DNA of 51,909 nucleotides, taken from NCBI GenBank assembly GCA_024278595.1, contig JAJRSW010000086.1:1-51909 (forward strand). The letters run 5' to 3'. This stretch comes from Fidelibacterota bacterium. Lineage in GTDB: Bacteria > Fidelibacterota > UBA8477 > JABMPR01. The position numbers and the translations under genes were made by a program. Shown here in pieces: positions 43,528 through 49,507 of this stretch (the stretch's first letter is position 1; every line of letters starts with the position of its first letter). The notes under the pieces were generated by a model. It did not search any database. It saw only the letters and a program-made list of their open reading frames with translations, and was not told the DNA's origin.

Positions 43528-44283
43528 CTATTTTCTCAATGCTGCCTTGGTAAACAGAAAATCCGGTATATCCTGGTCAAACTTGATGGAATCAATGATG
43601 AATTCGGTACCCTTCCCCTTTTTAAGGACATCTTTAAAGATCATGTGTTTGGGATACCAGCGTCCTTCAACCTTGAATACTTCTGTGATCTCGGTGGTCT
43701 TCAATAATTTACCGCTTCGTGCATAACGTTCTTCCTTCAGAGCGATCCAGCGCTTTGAATCTACCCAGACCTTGCGTTTGGCATAGGCTATGTCAGCTCT
43801 TTTGGCAATTAATTCAACCACCAGTGTCGGCCGAGCCCCAACCTGTTCTTCTGCAATAACGGTGCAATCATAGGCTTCTGCCAGCTCTTCAGCTTCCGTG
43901 AAATCCTCATAGGAGAGATCGGAGCCCATGACGGATTGGCGCAGCATGTGTCCGGCGATCTGGATTACCCTGTTCGTCCCCGGTGAATAGATCCAGAGTT
44001 TGTCATCAAGCCGGAGCATCTTGGTCCCCTTTTCACGAGGTGGAGAGAGATATTCACTGAATGATTTTTCAGCACCAACCATATAGCCTCGGGAGGTGAT
44101 GGTACGGCTACTCCGGATACCATGAACGATCATAGTGGATTCCACGACCTGATTTTCGGAGACCATATTTTCATCGATGCGTTGCATGACCTCCAGCCCG
44201 TCAGGCCATTTCTGGGCAATTACACTTGATGCGGGCCAGCTAAGCAAAATTGTCCCCACCAATATTAGAATTTGATTTTTCAT
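43528..44283 (-). CDS. Outer-membrane lipoprotein-sorting (LolA-like) protein of the Lol-type operon
   Basis: A 251-residue exported protein: signal peptide (ILVGTILLSWPASSVIAQ), then the LolA-like half-barrel: MIVHGIRSSRTITSRGYMVG, KMLRLDDKLWIYSPGTNRVIQIAGHML and RYARSGKLLKTTEITEV. The GSDLSYEDFTEAEEL block is typical of the group annotated as outer membrane lipoprotein-sorting protein (COG2834/DUF4292-like). It would shuttle a lipid or lipoprotein across the periplasm. It is the last gene of an operon with two FtsX permeases, an ATPase, a barrel and a TetR regulator. Confidence 0.82.
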   Translation of the reverse strand: MKNQILILVGTILLSWPASSVIAQKWPDGLEVMQRIDENMVSENQVVESTMIVHGIRSSRTITSRGYMVGAEKSFSEYLSPPREKGTKMLRLDDKLWIYSPGTNRVIQIAGHMLRQSVMGSDLSYEDFTEAEELAEAYDCTVIAEEQVGARPTLVVELIAKRADIAYAKRKVWVDSKRWIALKEERYARSGKLLKTTEITEVFKVEGRWYPKHMIFKDVLKKGKGTEFIIDSIKFDQDIPDFLFTKAALRK

Positions 44284-44328
44284 TTACCTCATGATCCTTA
44301 TTTCACAATTATTTTGGGGCTGTTATCT

Positions 44329-44356
44329 GTAGAGATGTTGCATGCAAGGTCTCTAC
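44329..44356. repeat. 28-bp palindromic repeat, second copy
   Basis: GTAGAGATGTTGCATGC continuing to GGTCTCTAC matches 15211-15238 and forms a hairpin with two mismatches in the stem. It lies between the LolA-like gene and the first permease, where it could tune expression of the last gene. Confidence 0.7.
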
Positions 44357-44370
44357 CACCGTGCAATATA

Positions 44371-45654
44371 TTATGTTTCTAGCTCCTTGAAGAGAGATGC
44401 TGTCTGCCGCTTGTATATCCCACGTCCGGATACCAGGGAGCCCAGAAGTGGGGCAATGAGGCCAGGAATGAATCCAGCATAGAAACAGGCTGGTATGATC
44501 TTTCCCCGAATAACATTGGGGTAGTAAATGCCATCCCCCGTATTCGAAGCCATATCACCCAGATTGATCCCATACTCCTGTAGGAACCAGACACCGACCA
44601 ACCCCAAAGCTGTTCCAAAAATGGTTCCAATAACACCAATGATGGCGGATTCTATGAGCATGGATCGATAGATGTGACCCTTTTGCTCCCCGACAGCTAA
44701 ACGCAGTCCCATTTCGCCATACCGACGTAGACCGTTCATGAGACCAGAGTTCCAGAGTACGATAAACATGATCAAAATGAATACAGTGGAAATGATGAAA
44801 ATAAAAGAACCTGCGAATTGCAGCATGCCAGCCATTTCATTGGAATCTTCAAGGCGGAGGGCGATGGGTGAGTAGGGATCATTTACATCTTTCAGGTTGT
44901 TGTTAACCCAGTCTGTGACAACCAGGGCTCTTTCACTGGTGTACTCATCATCCTTGAAAAATCCCAGGATCTCAGTACTGCCGCCATCCATGTCCAAAGC
45001 CATCCGGGCTCCCTCAATATCTGTGATAATGGCACCACCTTTATCCAGTGCGGCAATTCCAAAAACGACCATTCCAGAAACATTAAAATTCTGAAAGGAC
45101 ATGGAACCATTCACCGTAGAGGTCATGAGAGTTACCTGATCCCCAACACTGATATCGTAGGATTCAGCCATGCTTTTTGCGATGAGGATATCGAATGGAT
45201 CTTTGGGTAGACCTCCGGCTACAATGGATTCAGTCAGGTTTAGATAATCCAATTCTGTACTATTGGGGCTAATGAGGTCAGCAGCTAATGCGGAAATCGT
45301 AGTTTGAGCTCGTGTCTCCCCGTTTTCATCGGGAATGTCCAGTAGTCCACCAAAGCGCGTCCGGGCTTTCCACATCATGTCGGGAAATTGGGCTTCCAGA
45401 GTTTCGATCAGATCAGCTGCATTATCCATAGCCAGGTCCAAGGGCATTTGATGACGATTTTCATAGAAGCTCTGAGACATGAGCTTGACGTGGCCCGCAT
45501 CCATATGAGAACTCAGGCGTATCATATCGGGTAAAATACCGCCAATATACCCGGTCATTACAACAGTCAGAGCGGCTCCAATGAAGACAGTGAGAATGGG
45601 AAAAAGACTTCGTGAACGATCGCGGAGAATTCCAAGCAGCAGAAATTTGATCAT
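44371..45654 (-). CDS. FtsX-like (LolC/E/MacB-type) ABC permease 1
   Basis: A 427-residue permease with the FtsX topology: one N-terminal helix (FPILTVFIGAALTVVMTGYI), a large periplasmic domain (about 45-270) and three C-terminal helices: FAGSFIFIISTVFILIMFIVL, then IESAIIGVIGTIFGTALGLVG and a last helix near ACFYAGFIPGLIAPLLG. Its start overlaps the next permease's stop by four bases. A substrate such as a lipid-anchored or lipid molecule is inferred from the LolA-like neighbour. Confidence 0.9.
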   Translation of the reverse strand: MIKFLLLGILRDRSRSLFPILTVFIGAALTVVMTGYIGGILPDMIRLSSHMDAGHVKLMSQSFYENRHQMPLDLAMDNAADLIETLEAQFPDMMWKARTRFGGLLDIPDENGETRAQTTISALAADLISPNSTELDYLNLTESIVAGGLPKDPFDILIAKSMAESYDISVGDQVTLMTSTVNGSMSFQNFNVSGMVVFGIAALDKGGAIITDIEGARMALDMDGGSTEILGFFKDDEYTSERALVVTDWVNNNLKDVNDPYSPIALRLEDSNEMAGMLQFAGSFIFIISTVFILIMFIVLWNSGLMNGLRRYGEMGLRLAVGEQKGHIYRSMLIESAIIGVIGTIFGTALGLVGVWFLQEYGINLGDMASNTGDGIYYPNVIRGKIIPACFYAGFIPGLIAPLLGSLVSGRGIYKRQTASLFKELET

Positions 45655-46826
45655 GACATCTTCCCCCGTAAAGCATCGGTTGGTTTCAACTTGGCCAATT
45701 TGCGCACAGGAATAAAACTGGTAATAGTGACTGTAATGAGAACAATAATTATGGTTCCCAATATCAGTCCTACTGAATACTCCGGGAACAGGGTTTGAGG
45801 TAAAACCATTCCAAAATTGTCAACATCCATGGGCATTGTAAGACCCTTAACAGAATTCAAGTAGAGGAGTGGGGCTCCATATATAGTAGCCAGAACAACA
45901 GCAAAGAATCCATGCATACCTCCCTCAAGCGTAAACAGTTTGATGAGTGTCATGCGGGTCATTCCCAGAGCCATGAGGGTTCCCATCTCACGTCGACGCC
46001 GCCAGATGGAAAGAACTTGCGTATCGAAGACTGCCAGGAGAGCCAGTGCCATGAGTACACCATACATGATACTTCCACCGATACTTTTCATCTCCACCAT
46101 ATCACGGATATCTTTTGTCAGCGCAAAGAGGCTGTGATACTCCCATTCTGACTCGGGTAATTCTCCGCTATAGGACTTATCAATGATCAACAAGGTTGCT
46201 TCATTTTCCAGGCGTGTGATATCCTGAAGCAGCGCCAAATCGACCCAGACATTCCCGATATCGATGGTCGAGTTCGTGGTCGTCATGACAGCTACAACCC
46301 GGGCGTCCCGGGCGTCATAGGCACCATTCCCATCCCGCCATTGCAAGGTAAAAATATCTCCTGCTTTGACATTGATGCTTTTGGCCATTCGATGACCCAG
46401 CATGATGGGTAAATACTCATTTGATTCAACTCTAAGCTCAGATGTAGGTATGTTCATCACCTGTTGATTGGGATCCACTCCCCGTAATATGATGTTTTTT
46501 AACCGGTTGTCAGGGTATATGGCTCCCTGGTAAAACATGACGGGTGTTATTACTCCTGAACTGATCAGTGGATTAAAAACCTCTGGAATGGTTTCATGTG
46601 CATCAGGGAGGGATAGGGGGTCGTAGGGATCGTAGATCGCGCACCAGTATTGCCCACTACCCATATCCGTGTCTTCTGAAATTCGGATGCTTTGATCCTG
46701 CATACCATTATACAGGCCTTTAAGGTAGATGATGGACAGGAATGCCAATGAGAGCACAAAGACATTGAGCCAGGTACGTATACCAGCGCCTTTTAAATTT
46801 CGATATGCTAATTTTAGGATGACCAT
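45651..46826 (-). CDS. FtsX-like (LolC/E/MacB-type) ABC permease 2
   Basis: A 391-residue paralogue of the neighbouring permease: an N-terminal helix (TWLNVFVLSLAFLSIIYL), a periplasmic domain (about 45-245) and three C-terminal helices (SIMYGVLMALALLAVFDTQ, MHGFFAVVLATIYGAPLLYL, VGLILGTIIIVLITVTI). The RRREMGTLMALGMTRMTLI coupling segment is the FtsX signature that contacts the ATPase. The ATG is preceded by AAGGAGGG. It forms a heterodimer with permease 1, most probably. Confidence 0.9.
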   Translation of the reverse strand: MVILKLAYRNLKGAGIRTWLNVFVLSLAFLSIIYLKGLYNGMQDQSIRISEDTDMGSGQYWCAIYDPYDPLSLPDAHETIPEVFNPLISSGVITPVMFYQGAIYPDNRLKNIILRGVDPNQQVMNIPTSELRVESNEYLPIMLGHRMAKSINVKAGDIFTLQWRDGNGAYDARDARVVAVMTTTNSTIDIGNVWVDLALLQDITRLENEATLLIIDKSYSGELPESEWEYHSLFALTKDIRDMVEMKSIGGSIMYGVLMALALLAVFDTQVLSIWRRRREMGTLMALGMTRMTLIKLFTLEGGMHGFFAVVLATIYGAPLLYLNSVKGLTMPMDVDNFGMVLPQTLFPEYSVGLILGTIIIVLITVTITSFIPVRKLAKLKPTDALRGKMS

Positions 46827-46842
46827 GTTGCCCTCCTTTTAT

Positions 46843-47535
46843 TTATTTAGTTTCATCTTTAACCACTTTGCCATCTTCCAGAGAGATGATCCGTTTCATA
46901 TACTGCATGACCTTCTCGTCATGAGTAGCGAATAGAAATGTGGTCTGAAGCTCAGCATTCAGTTTCTCCATGGTTTCCAGGATATGATGCGAGTTTTTAG
47001 CATCAAGATTTGCTGTGGGTTCATCGGCCAGCACAAGTGCCGGTTTTTTTACCATAGCTCGGGCAATGGCAACACGCTGTGATTCACCACCTGAAAGCTG
47101 CGCTGGACGCATATCAGCCTTAGCTGATAATCCAACCCATTCCAGGGCATCGTTGACCATCTTTTTGCGATCGTCTGCACTTTTACCGAGCAAGAGCAGG
47201 GGGAACTCAATATTTTCAAAAACCGTATAAACGGGAAGCAGGTTATAGGTTTGGAAGATGAATCCGATGTGCTGGTTTCTGAGCATGGCGGCCTGTTTAT
47301 GAGTAAGCGATCCTATATTATGATCAAGAACTGTGACCGAACCGCTGGTTGGGATGTCCAGTGATCCAATAACATTGAGTAGCGTCGTTTTTCCTGACCC
47401 ACTGGGACCGACCAGCCCGCTGAATTCACCTTTTCCAATGTCAATATTTACATTTTTCAACGCAACAAACTCACAACCAGCTACCGGATAAGTTTTAACC
47501 AGGTCGTGGGTGTGGATCAGTTTTGTTTCACTCAT
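46843..47535 (-). CDS. LolD/MacB-type ABC ATPase
   Basis: A 230-residue ATPase. Walker A is GPSGSGKTT, the Q-loop is GFIFQTYNLLPVYTV, the signature LSGGESQRVAIARAMVKKPALVLADEPTANLD and the H-loop FATHD. The spacing and the NLLPVYTVFENIEFPL segment are typical of LolD/MacB/FtsE. It powers the two FtsX permeases encoded next, separated by 16 bases. Confidence 0.95.
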   Translation of the reverse strand: MSETKLIHTHDLVKTYPVAGCEFVALKNVNIDIGKGEFSGLVGPSGSGKTTLLNVIGSLDIPTSGSVTVLDHNIGSLTHKQAAMLRNQHIGFIFQTYNLLPVYTVFENIEFPLLLLGKSADDRKKMVNDALEWVGLSAKADMRPAQLSGGESQRVAIARAMVKKPALVLADEPTANLDAKNSHHILETMEKLNAELQTTFLFATHDEKVMQYMKRIISLEDGKVVKDETK

Positions 47536-47671
47536 TTCAGTCTCCTATTTAAGAAATCTTGTAAAAAGTTACCCTGTACCGCTTCGAAGGCACCCAGGCT
47601 CAAAGGAGGGCAAAGTGTGCTTGTCTATCCTGGTAACTTGGTGCCATAAAGATTTTTTGGTCCATATTAGT

Positions 47672-48787
47672 TTAGTGGTTATAAGCCACTGTCAATTGTA
47701 TTCCTTTACCACTCGAACCAGTGGTAACTAATGATTCACGTCCCGCTGATCCACTCACCTTGGTATATAGGGCTGCCAGGGTGAAGCGGATGCTATCATA
47801 GCTTCGTCTCCAACTGAGATATACCAGGGGTGTCTCTGACTCCCAATTCATAAACAGAAGAATGCTAAGCTGGTCAAACATGCTGGGCGAGTAGCTGATC
47901 ATACCACTACTAAGCTGCAGCGTTTGATCTTCGATGAAGGGACTATTCCAGCTTCTGATAAGCATGTGTTCAGCCATAATATGCAGTCCACTCCCAATCC
48001 AGATCGTATAGTCAGAGCCCAGGGTTGCCTGGATCTGGTCTAGAAATGGGTCTACACTAAGCTCTTGATGTTTGTACACAGATTCCACCCAGAGACCGAC
48101 ACCCACATCCCAGAAACCATCCAGTCCGATGCGACCTTCGTACAGATCGGGATCATCAGGAGAAAAATCTGATATATCAGCTATCCTAAAGTGAGAGCTG
48201 ACGCCGATCTGCCCACGATTCCTGGGTATCTCCACTCGTCCACCAGTTTCAAGCGTACCGGGTTTACCAGGAAAGGCTTCCCAACCCATGGGCTCTCCTG
48301 GGAGCAGAAGCCAGGCTCGAGACGACCAGCCAAAATCATAGTAGTAGCTGGCAGAGATCCCCGTGACGCCGCTGGTCAGGTTCAAGGGATCAGTTGGATC
48401 CAGGGTGTCAAACCACATGAGGGGACGGAGGATCTTTGCCGGTCCGAAATTGATCTTTTGCAAGCCAATGATGTATTCAGAATGGCTGCTTTGCAGGTTT
48501 AGGGCAATCCGATAGGGCTCAAACTGTATGGTAGATTCCGAAAGAGCGGGAGTATCCAGAAAACTCGTCCAGCTAAGTTGCCAACGAAATTCAAGGTCAT
48601 AGTCCCAGGAGTCAGTCAAATTGTTCGTGACTTCGAATGCCGGTAAATATCGGGTAATGACTTGCATGTCGGAGCGTTCTGTACCAAAGACAGATGTGGA
48701 GAGCGATAGTTCCCCGACCAGTGGGAACCCAGCAAAGGTTGAGATGATGGGGAGCATGAAAAATAGTGTTTTGGCAAGTCGCCCCAT
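47672..48787 (-). CDS. Predicted outer-membrane beta-barrel protein of the Lol-type operon
   Basis: This 371-residue protein opens MGRLAKTLFFMLPIISTFAG, a signal peptide, when started at ATG 48787. The mature sequence alternates amphipathic strands with polar turns, rich in Trp, Tyr and Phe: WDYDLEFRWQLSWTSFL, GISASYYYDFGWSSRAWLL, GLWVESVYKHQEL. It ends in an aromatic-His strand (GIQLTVAYNH), as many barrels do. No DUF is recognised with certainty. The TetR stop lies one base upstream, so the two are coupled. In an ABC-LolA operon it may be the outer-membrane exit or receptor. Confidence 0.68.
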   Translation of the reverse strand: MGRLAKTLFFMLPIISTFAGFPLVGELSLSTSVFGTERSDMQVITRYLPAFEVTNNLTDSWDYDLEFRWQLSWTSFLDTPALSESTIQFEPYRIALNLQSSHSEYIIGLQKINFGPAKILRPLMWFDTLDPTDPLNLTSGVTGISASYYYDFGWSSRAWLLLPGEPMGWEAFPGKPGTLETGGRVEIPRNRGQIGVSSHFRIADISDFSPDDPDLYEGRIGLDGFWDVGVGLWVESVYKHQELSVDPFLDQIQATLGSDYTIWIGSGLHIMAEHMLIRSWNSPFIEDQTLQLSSGMISYSPSMFDQLSILLFMNWESETPLVYLSWRRSYDSIRFTLAALYTKVSGSAGRESLVTTGSSGKGIQLTVAYNH

Positions 48788-48788
48788 G

Positions 48789-49424
48789 CTATCTGGTATC
48801 CTGTTCCTGAGGAGGACCTGATGTTCCATAGAACAAAAAATTCATATAGTCCCGGGATAACTTCACCATGTCATCACCAAACATGGCCATCATCTCCGGC
48901 GATCTGGCGTCTTCCCCCAGGAGGGTCCAAACATGGAGGAGAAAATCAACGCTGTAGTCCTGGTGGATCTCACCGGCAATTTGGGAATCACTAAAAAAAT
49001 GTTTCATGGCCTGCATGCTCATTTCAGTCCAGCGACTCATAAGTGATGTGACGGCAACATCTGAGCTTAGCAGGCTGTGTATAAAGACGGGGGTGAAATG
49101 ACTAACAGCGGATTCTTTCATGGCGATCATGGCCTGCATCTTGTCTTGAAGACTGGCCTGGGCTGTTCTGATACGCTCAAAAGTTTCCATTCCCAGGGAC
49201 AGGCGCTCGCTCATATAATCTTCCAGGACTGCAAATTTATTGGAGAAATATTTATAAAAAGTAACTTTTGAGACACCTGCTTCCCGGCAGATCTCTTCAA
49301 CGGTAACTCGATGGTAACCGAATTTCATAAAGAGATCTTCGGCTGTGCGTAAGATATCACCTTCTTTTTTTGGGCGATCCTGAAAGTCAGGTAGTTTAAC
49401 GTCTGTGAGTATTCGATGTGGCAT
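48789..49424 (-). CDS. TetR/AcrR-family transcriptional regulator
   Basis: A 211-residue regulator with the helix-turn-helix VTVEEICREAGVSKVTFYKYFSNKFAVLEDY at about 40-70. The ligand-binding half is helical and divergent. It is the first gene of the Lol-type operon, with the barrel one base after it, so it likely controls its own operon in response to a lipophilic or membrane-stress signal. Directly repeated ATGTACGAT motifs flank its promoter. Confidence 0.9.
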   Translation of the reverse strand: MPHRILTDVKLPDFQDRPKKEGDILRTAEDLFMKFGYHRVTVEEICREAGVSKVTFYKYFSNKFAVLEDYMSERLSLGMETFERIRTAQASLQDKMQAMIAMKESAVSHFTPVFIHSLLSSDVAVTSLMSRWTEMSMQAMKHFFSDSQIAGEIHQDYSVDFLLHVWTLLGEDARSPEMMAMFGDDMVKLSRDYMNFLFYGTSGPPQEQDTR

Positions 49425-49427
49425 GAT

Positions 49428-49507
49428 ATGTACGATTCCCGTTACTTGTGTTCAAATACGTATGGAATATCCTTAATAAATATAGCATGTCAATCGAAAT
49501 GTACGAT
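49428..49507 (-). promoter_or_regulatory. Promoter and candidate TetR operator region of the Lol-type operon
   Basis: On the minus strand TTGACA (49488-49493) and GATATT, 16 bases downstream, make a plausible promoter. ATGTACGAT occurs as a direct repeat at 49428-49436 and 49499-49507, and the palindrome ATACGTAT lies between them. TetR proteins usually bind such short palindromic or repeated sites. Inferred. Confidence 0.4.

Follow-up and report, generated by a model that had tools for sequence, protein, structure and literature searches.

A six-gene operon on the minus strand of a Fidelibacterota bacterium contig (JAJRSW010000086.1, assembly GCA_024278595.1; the whole analysed stretch of 51,909 nucleotides (nt) is called the window below) combines a TetR-type regulator, a predicted outer-membrane beta-barrel, a LolD-like ATP-binding cassette (ABC) ATPase, two FtsX-type permeases, PermA and PermB, and a LolA-like carrier. 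We consider it somewhat better than an even bet (about 55%) that this set is a self-contained, probably inducible, ATP-driven exporter of hydrophobic or amphiphilic cargo, that is, the ABC-engine counterpart of AmeABCD-type exporters, which pair an RND pump with a LolA-like protein and a DUF1302 barrel. Among the evidence for this reading, the five transport genes keep one order over a wide range of bacteria, and within the genus they are exchanged together as a block.

The row of genes reported in a preliminary description of this DNA was found in place, with all six genes on the minus strand: the regulator (48,789–49,424; 211 amino acids (aa); PF00440 TetR_N, E = 3.1e-15 in Pfam), the barrel (47,672–48,787; 371 aa including a signal peptide; 18 predicted strands), the ATPase (46,843–47,535; 230 aa; PF00005 ABC_tran, 5.2e-35), PermA with a LolC/LolE-like predicted fold (45,651–46,826; 391 aa; PF02687, 7.1e-13), PermB (44,371–45,654; 427 aa; PF02687, 5.1e-16) and the carrier (43,528–44,283; 251 aa; PF17131, 3.2e-58). 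Their 'tight packing', claimed in the same description, holds for three junctions: TetR and barrel genes are 1 nt apart if the ATG at 48,787 is the start (a longer open reading frame (ORF) from 48,829 would overlap TetR), ATPase and PermA genes are 16 nt apart, and PermA and PermB overlap by 4 nt. It does not hold for the wider gaps of 136 nt between barrel and ATPase and 87 nt between PermB and the carrier. Judging by the translations, barrel and carrier have signal peptides without a lipobox, and a transglutaminase-like protein encoded downstream has a lipobox.

In the genus of the window two types of five-gene block (I and II) stand behind similar TetR genes. When locus L043 is compared with the window, the surroundings are kept (Fur 77% identity, a rhodanese protein 62%, TetR 74%, transglutaminase 77%) and the transport genes have diverged (barrel 34%, ATPase 65%, PermA 44%, PermB 48%, LolA-like carrier 56%). 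Similarly, L031 and L049 share 91% in TetR and only 34% and 45% in barrel and PermA, whereas L031 and L030 share 71% in TetR and 92% in PermA. Each type forms one group in the PermA tree (support of 100 in the Shimodaira-Hasegawa-like approximate likelihood ratio test, the only support computed for this quick tree, which has one very long branch, L057), and the two types lie apart, among other families and phyla. The two types intermingle in the TetR tree, where a single clade of type I regulators is rejected by the approximately unbiased test (P = 6.6e-7, a value for a group that was named after the identities had been seen and not fixed beforehand). Across 13 operons of the genus, pairwise distances of the five transport genes correlate at 0.93–0.99 with one another (0.93–0.97 for barrel against pump genes) and at 0.17–0.33 with those of TetR. 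Thus, in this genus the genes for barrel, pump and carrier travel together while the regulator remains in place. This joint variation and exchange is the best evidence we have for assigning barrel and carrier to the same system as the pump.

The regulator also seems to keep its promoter. Upstream of the window TetR gene (49,425–49,500, minus strand) there are TTGACA (49,493–49,488) and, after 16 nt, GATATT (49,471–49,466), followed by a CGTACAT-type element right before the start codon; no perfect or near-perfect palindrome was found there at the thresholds used. By eye, CGTACAT or CGTTCAT is seen near the start codon in 14 of 16 upstream stretches, with both cassette types, those of L049 and L053 having been cut at a wrong start. 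Since these elements (window and loci L028–L056) are retained with either type of cassette, regulator and promoter seem to be inherited together. The nearest NCBIfam model of the regulator is FadR of Bacillus, at 39.9 bits far under the cut-off of 200.

The barrel is present in 30 of 40 genomes (the host genome and 39 relatives). Thirty loci were taken from the 29 barrel-bearing relatives; 26 contain both permeases and the other four run off their contigs. A survey of the phylum found it in 92 of 149 genomes (58 of the 84 with better completeness and less contamination; 47 of 64 genera), in almost every case as a single copy. Beyond the phylum, a search of genome contigs with PermA returned at least 544 confirmed relatives, the best 80 of which were made into loci. 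By record titles and NCBI ranks these loci come from 13 phyla, a count in which Bacillota are two metagenome-assembled genomes titled Clostridia that may be misbinned and two entries counted as Myxococcota are titled Deltaproteobacteria; 19 are from Fidelibacterota, and 26, mostly Aminicenantes and KSB1, have no ranked phylum. Of the 80 loci, 66 contain the full set of five transport genes, and in 66 of 66 the order is barrel, ATPase, PermA, PermB, LolA, with no gap above 500 nt in 59; because every complete locus shares it, the order is not due to chance. Eleven of the 14 incomplete loci miss genes at contig ends, and in three (L071, L088, L112) one core gene was not detected between the others. 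A TetR gene stands close upstream of all five genes in 36 of the 80, divergent regulators being missed because TetR was sought by similarity to that of the window, and any same-strand TetR of the locus being counted for gene order. All six genes in the same order occur in a culture-collection strain, Persicobacter psychrovividus NBRC 101262.

No Pfam or NCBIfam family matches the barrel of the window at E 1, in line with the earlier remark that it belongs to no nameable family. Its AlphaFold2 model, built with 69 sequences, predicts an 18-stranded barrel with high confidence (mean predicted local distance difference test score (pLDDT) 90.7, predicted template modelling score 0.85), so that the idea of a common soluble protein, raised in advance as a possible refutation, was not borne out. 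The top Foldseek match of the model is the alginate exporter AlgE (E = 8.8e-10, template modelling (TM) score 0.59) at only 9% identity, and by sequence the barrel does not match any alginate-exporter-type family in Pfam; no Omp85 chain is among the best 50 of 847 matches. Against sequences of the PDB, phmmer gave two chance matches only (E = 0.35 and 1.7) and the barrel profile gave nothing at E 1. When 29 barrels were scanned against Pfam, three were weakly similar to outer-membrane families, one to Wzi (5.6e-4) and two to Phenol_MetA_deg (0.015 at best), and three further families were each hit by one member at 0.12 or worse. Provided that both termini face the periplasm, as they do in other barrels, strands 5 and 6 are joined by outer loop L3, 30 residues long, and this is the most conserved part of the protein (0.79 versus 0.52 for the mature protein); the least conserved are outer loops L1, L2, L5, L6, L7 and L9 (0.18–0.29). 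Strands 5 and 8 each have one alternating face of polar, highly conserved residues (0.94 and 0.95). This pattern suggests a lumen that has a fixed constriction, as in porins. The barrel frame is interrupted in three genomes: it is split in L056 (7,701–8,803 of that locus), close to a contig end, and contains a single TGA in genomes G069 (contig C1) and G110 (contig C30).

The pump is Lol-like, with scores under the Lol cut-offs. The best NCBIfam model of the ATPase is LolD (TIGR02211; 234 bits, under the cut-off of 307.75), and both permeases score far under the 362.45 bits of the LolCE model TIGR02212 (PermA 37.2, PermB 20.4); PermB scores higher with the ADOP permease model (30.5 bits). In the structural search with PermA (predicted model, pLDDT 84.8) the first nine matches are LolCDE chains, with a best TM score of 0.75, and LolE and LolC are the nearest. 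Profile searches of PDB sequences place LolF first among the solved relatives of PermA (5.4e-13) and PermB (8.7e-12), and PermB also matches MacB (8.9e-10) and LolE (3.5e-5). The Hook of LolC (aa 167–179), which recruits LolA, is described as essential for lipoprotein trafficking in E. coli and as predicted in all species modelled (PMC10865981). In an alignment of PermA with E. coli LolC (probability 96.8) residues 165–181, which hold the Hook, are absent; PermB has a hairpin at this place that is six residues shorter (probability 69.4). Both PermA and PermB have conserved residues there.

The carrier matches PF17131 over nearly the whole model with 196.9 bits (gathering score 30), and it also passes the gathering score of DUF1329 (33.8 bits versus 23.1; E = 3e-8), which fits far less well. 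The host genome, 94% complete, encodes four PF17131 proteins. Besides the carrier of the window there are three; each is accompanied by a TetR-like gene, a gene for an MMPL/RND transporter and one for a 391–439-aa protein. Two of these transporters are similar to HAE3 (211.7 and 225 bits, cut-off 351.9) and the third to HpnN and BstA (351.2 and 251.4 bits, both under the cut-offs); one of the three 391–439-aa proteins matches DUF1302 (2.1e-10) and two have no Pfam match. The same genome answers whether other lol genes exist: contig C96 holds a separate FtsX pair that reaches 272.7 and 245.7 bits with the LolCE model, versus 35.8 for PermA in this search. As this pair, probably the housekeeping one, is under 362.45 too, the LolCE cut-off is strict for the phylum. 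Its presence, and the scores of the window genes under the Lol cut-offs, indicate that the window operon is probably not the housekeeping Lol system. The only other LolA model searched, PF03548, has no match in the genome.

Three observations favor cargo that is hydrophobic or amphiphilic and not a protein: the genome has a LolCE-like pair elsewhere, no lipoprotein partner recurs beside the cassette, and RND counterparts are encoded in the same genome. A lipid or a toxic hydrophobe would be likelier than a lipoprotein. We infer the following relay. The LolC/E-like permeases, driven by the LolD-like ATPase, would lift the compound from the inner membrane and hand it to the soluble LolA-like carrier, which would cross the periplasm and dock on the 18-strand barrel. 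Through this barrel, whose loop L3 is conserved, the compound may then enter or cross the outer membrane. The TetR protein presumably represses the operon until the compound, or a relative of it, releases the regulator. By analogy, the nearest tested system is AmeABCD of Castellaniella defragrans, whose deletion is reported to lower monoterpene tolerance and increase Nile Red accumulation (PMC6394551). There too, an inner-membrane pump, a periplasmic protein of the LolA superfamily and an own outer-membrane protein are encoded together and the cargo is hydrophobic. In contrast to the ABC_tran and FtsX proteins of the window, the AmeABCD pump is an RND transporter of the HAE3 type, and a DUF1302 protein of 605 aa, a DUF1329 protein of 451 aa and the additional AmeC take the place of the own barrel and the PF17131 protein (same source). 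For the DUF1302 barrel and the DUF1329 protein of Pseudomonas putida a contact has been predicted (PMC10866462).

Several observations weigh against this reading. Many ordinary porins trail AlgE within a tenfold E-value in the Foldseek search with the barrel model. The link to DUF1302 is weak: hhalign of the barrel with DUF1302-type barrels of relatives gives a probability of 42.6% (P = 2.6e-4, at a conserved motif), a value that makes common descent of the two kinds of barrel, like homology with the AmeABCD barrel, a suggestion. Conserved inward positions of the barrel are mostly polar or charged, so an amphiphile fits better than a plain hydrocarbon. Within the genus, the correlation of TetR distances with those of the cassette is weak yet not nil (r = 0.17–0.33, P = 0.02–0.07, 13 operons). 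In the 36 cross-phylum loci the correlation with the transport genes is 0.49–0.58 for TetR and 0.48–0.85 among the transport genes themselves, with 0.48 for barrel and ATPase; as the contrast is gone here, separability of the regulator is shown within the genus only. Finally, neither an experiment on any cassette member nor a description of the five-gene cassette was found in the open-licence literature, most subscription papers lying outside that scope; by the same search, the set does not correspond to a described MacAB or Lol system with a known substrate, another refutation considered in advance.

The strongest competitor, which we regard as unlikely, is a specialised lipoprotein exporter: the ABC part would extract certain lipoproteins, the LolA-like protein would carry them, and the barrel, in place of LolB, would insert them or flip them to the surface. 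Permeases and ATPase being nearest to LolF, LolC/E and LolD agrees with this, the PermB hairpin could be a short hook, and PF03548 has no match in the genome (PF03548 and PF17131 being the LolA families searched). On the other hand, a much more LolCE-like pair is present on C96, the Hook insertion is lacking from PermA by alignment, and no lipoprotein gene recurs beside the set, that of the transglutaminase-like lipoprotein included. It should be noted that the Hook counts little in this balance, since it is absent in PermA only and PermB keeps the shorter hairpin. From LolCDE-LolA-LolB itself, with which the set shares the PermA fold, the LolD-like ATPase and a carrier of the LolA superfamily, it differs by its own barrel, by having no LolB, by scores under all Lol cut-offs and by these changes at the Hook.

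Less probable still is that pump and carrier do not feed the barrel, which would be a porin or a lipid-asymmetry helper merely co-expressed with a Lol-type pump. General porins, including OmpC in complex with MlaA, indeed rank shortly after AlgE. A co-expressed bystander, however, is hard to reconcile with barrel and pump genes that co-vary and are exchanged jointly within the genus, with the same order in all complete loci, or with variable outer loops around a most conserved L3. An inward direction, i.e. uptake of hydrophobic nutrients, seems very improbable: the permeases have solved relatives (LolCDE, MacB and HrtBA) that work as exporters or mechanical transducers, and no catabolic gene family recurs beside the set in the 80 loci. 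Growth of P. putida on Tween 20 does need its DUF1302 and DUF1329 genes (PMC10866462), but AmeABCD acts as an exporter (PMC6394551). MacAB-TolC is ruled out, despite the similar permease type (MacB is among the PermB profile matches), by two separate permeases, a separate ATPase, an 18-strand barrel model with AlgE and porin matches and the lack of any MacA- or TolC-like gene among the operon proteins in Pfam and NCBIfam.

An exporter with a Lol-type pump, a carrier and an exit barrel of its own, as we prefer to read the set, has two further partial parallels, each seen in the available part of its source. The nearest printed idea among the literature found is the Borrelia cluster BBJ23-29, proposed in February 2026 (PMC13078400), with a LolE-like, i.e. 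Lol/MacB-type, ABC transporter, a LolA-like protein and an own barrel in one cluster. It differs from the window set in an Omp85-family barrel, a single permease as proposed homodimer, two tetratricopeptide repeat (TPR) proteins and BBJ29, and no TetR is named in that part of the paper; the window operon has no TPR match in Pfam. Low-iron-induced operons of Bacteroidota, such as PG1175-81, likewise join a TetR, a transporter and an 'outer membrane lipoprotein-sorting protein', but have an MMPL transporter and other ABC proteins, are reported to respond to iron and, in the part available, have no barrel named (PMC10434189).

The earlier exporter reading is supported in part, namely for a Lol-like ABC exporter that has a LolA-like carrier, a predicted outer-membrane barrel and a TetR of its own. 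A bolder generalization, which we hold tentatively and at less than even odds, is that the cassette represents a widespread, unrecognised class of ATP-driven trans-envelope exporters beside Lpt, Lol and MacAB-TolC, in which a soluble carrier connects a Lol-type pump with a dedicated 18-strand exit barrel and the whole cassette is swapped behind a kept TetR as the expelled compound changes. If true, lipids or toxic hydrophobes would commonly cross periplasm and outer membrane by way of a soluble shuttle, with no duct or bridge running all the way. Numerous phyla, the majority known through genomes of uncultured bacteria, would have this route, with a barrel that in the window escapes Pfam and NCBIfam. 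It would also mean that the 'carrier plus barrel' half of RND systems works with different engines. The cassette is compact enough for reconstitution.

One part of the preliminary description found no support, the transglutaminase-like lipoprotein as a member of the pathway: a relative adjoins the operon in two of the 30 relative loci (L029, L043), several of which end before that place, and in one of the 80 loci of the cross-phylum set, L058, whose contig is as long as that of L029. Clustering of the 456 flanking ORFs with 100 aa or more in these 80 loci gave no family that occurs in more than nine, so no dedicated partner is seen, neither a biosynthetic one nor a lipoprotein. Of ten chosen neighbors, eight have Pfam matches, mostly to unrelated enzymes and transporters and in one case to an acyltransferase. 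This gene (PF01757, 1.6e-28) lies between barrel and ATPase in a Fidelibacterota genome (L129, 1,635–2,813), which perhaps hints at an acylated substrate. Downstream of LolA in L085, L091 and L098 there is a second TetR with genes that, on reading their sequences, resemble a TolC/HlyD/RND efflux set. In the host genome a gene for a patatin-like phospholipase (PF01734, 1.7e-23) follows the RND/LolA-like/DUF1302 set on contig C42 (L005, 9,841–12,039).

A second PermA-like gene stands beside or after the cassette in five loci (L029, 2,776–5,221; L031, 12,027–13,169; L034, 4,655–5,830; L093, 11,312–12,475; L101, 2,864–5,593). Small ORFs of one family (104–153 aa) are found inside or at the edge of the cassette in L085, L093, L098, L099, L101 and L115, mostly between ATPase and PermA; their product looks like a four-helix protein of the kind encoded by 23S rRNA intervening sequences. 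Vibrio campbellii LJC015 (NZ_CP050465.1; L174, 3,957–9,204) has a PF17131 gene followed, in this order, by genes for two FtsX permeases that contain MacB_PCD, for an ATPase and for a protein of roughly 400 aa that carries a likely signal peptide and a C-terminal Phe. Reading this last protein as a barrel, the Vibrio locus is perhaps the same idea with a different order and a different barrel.

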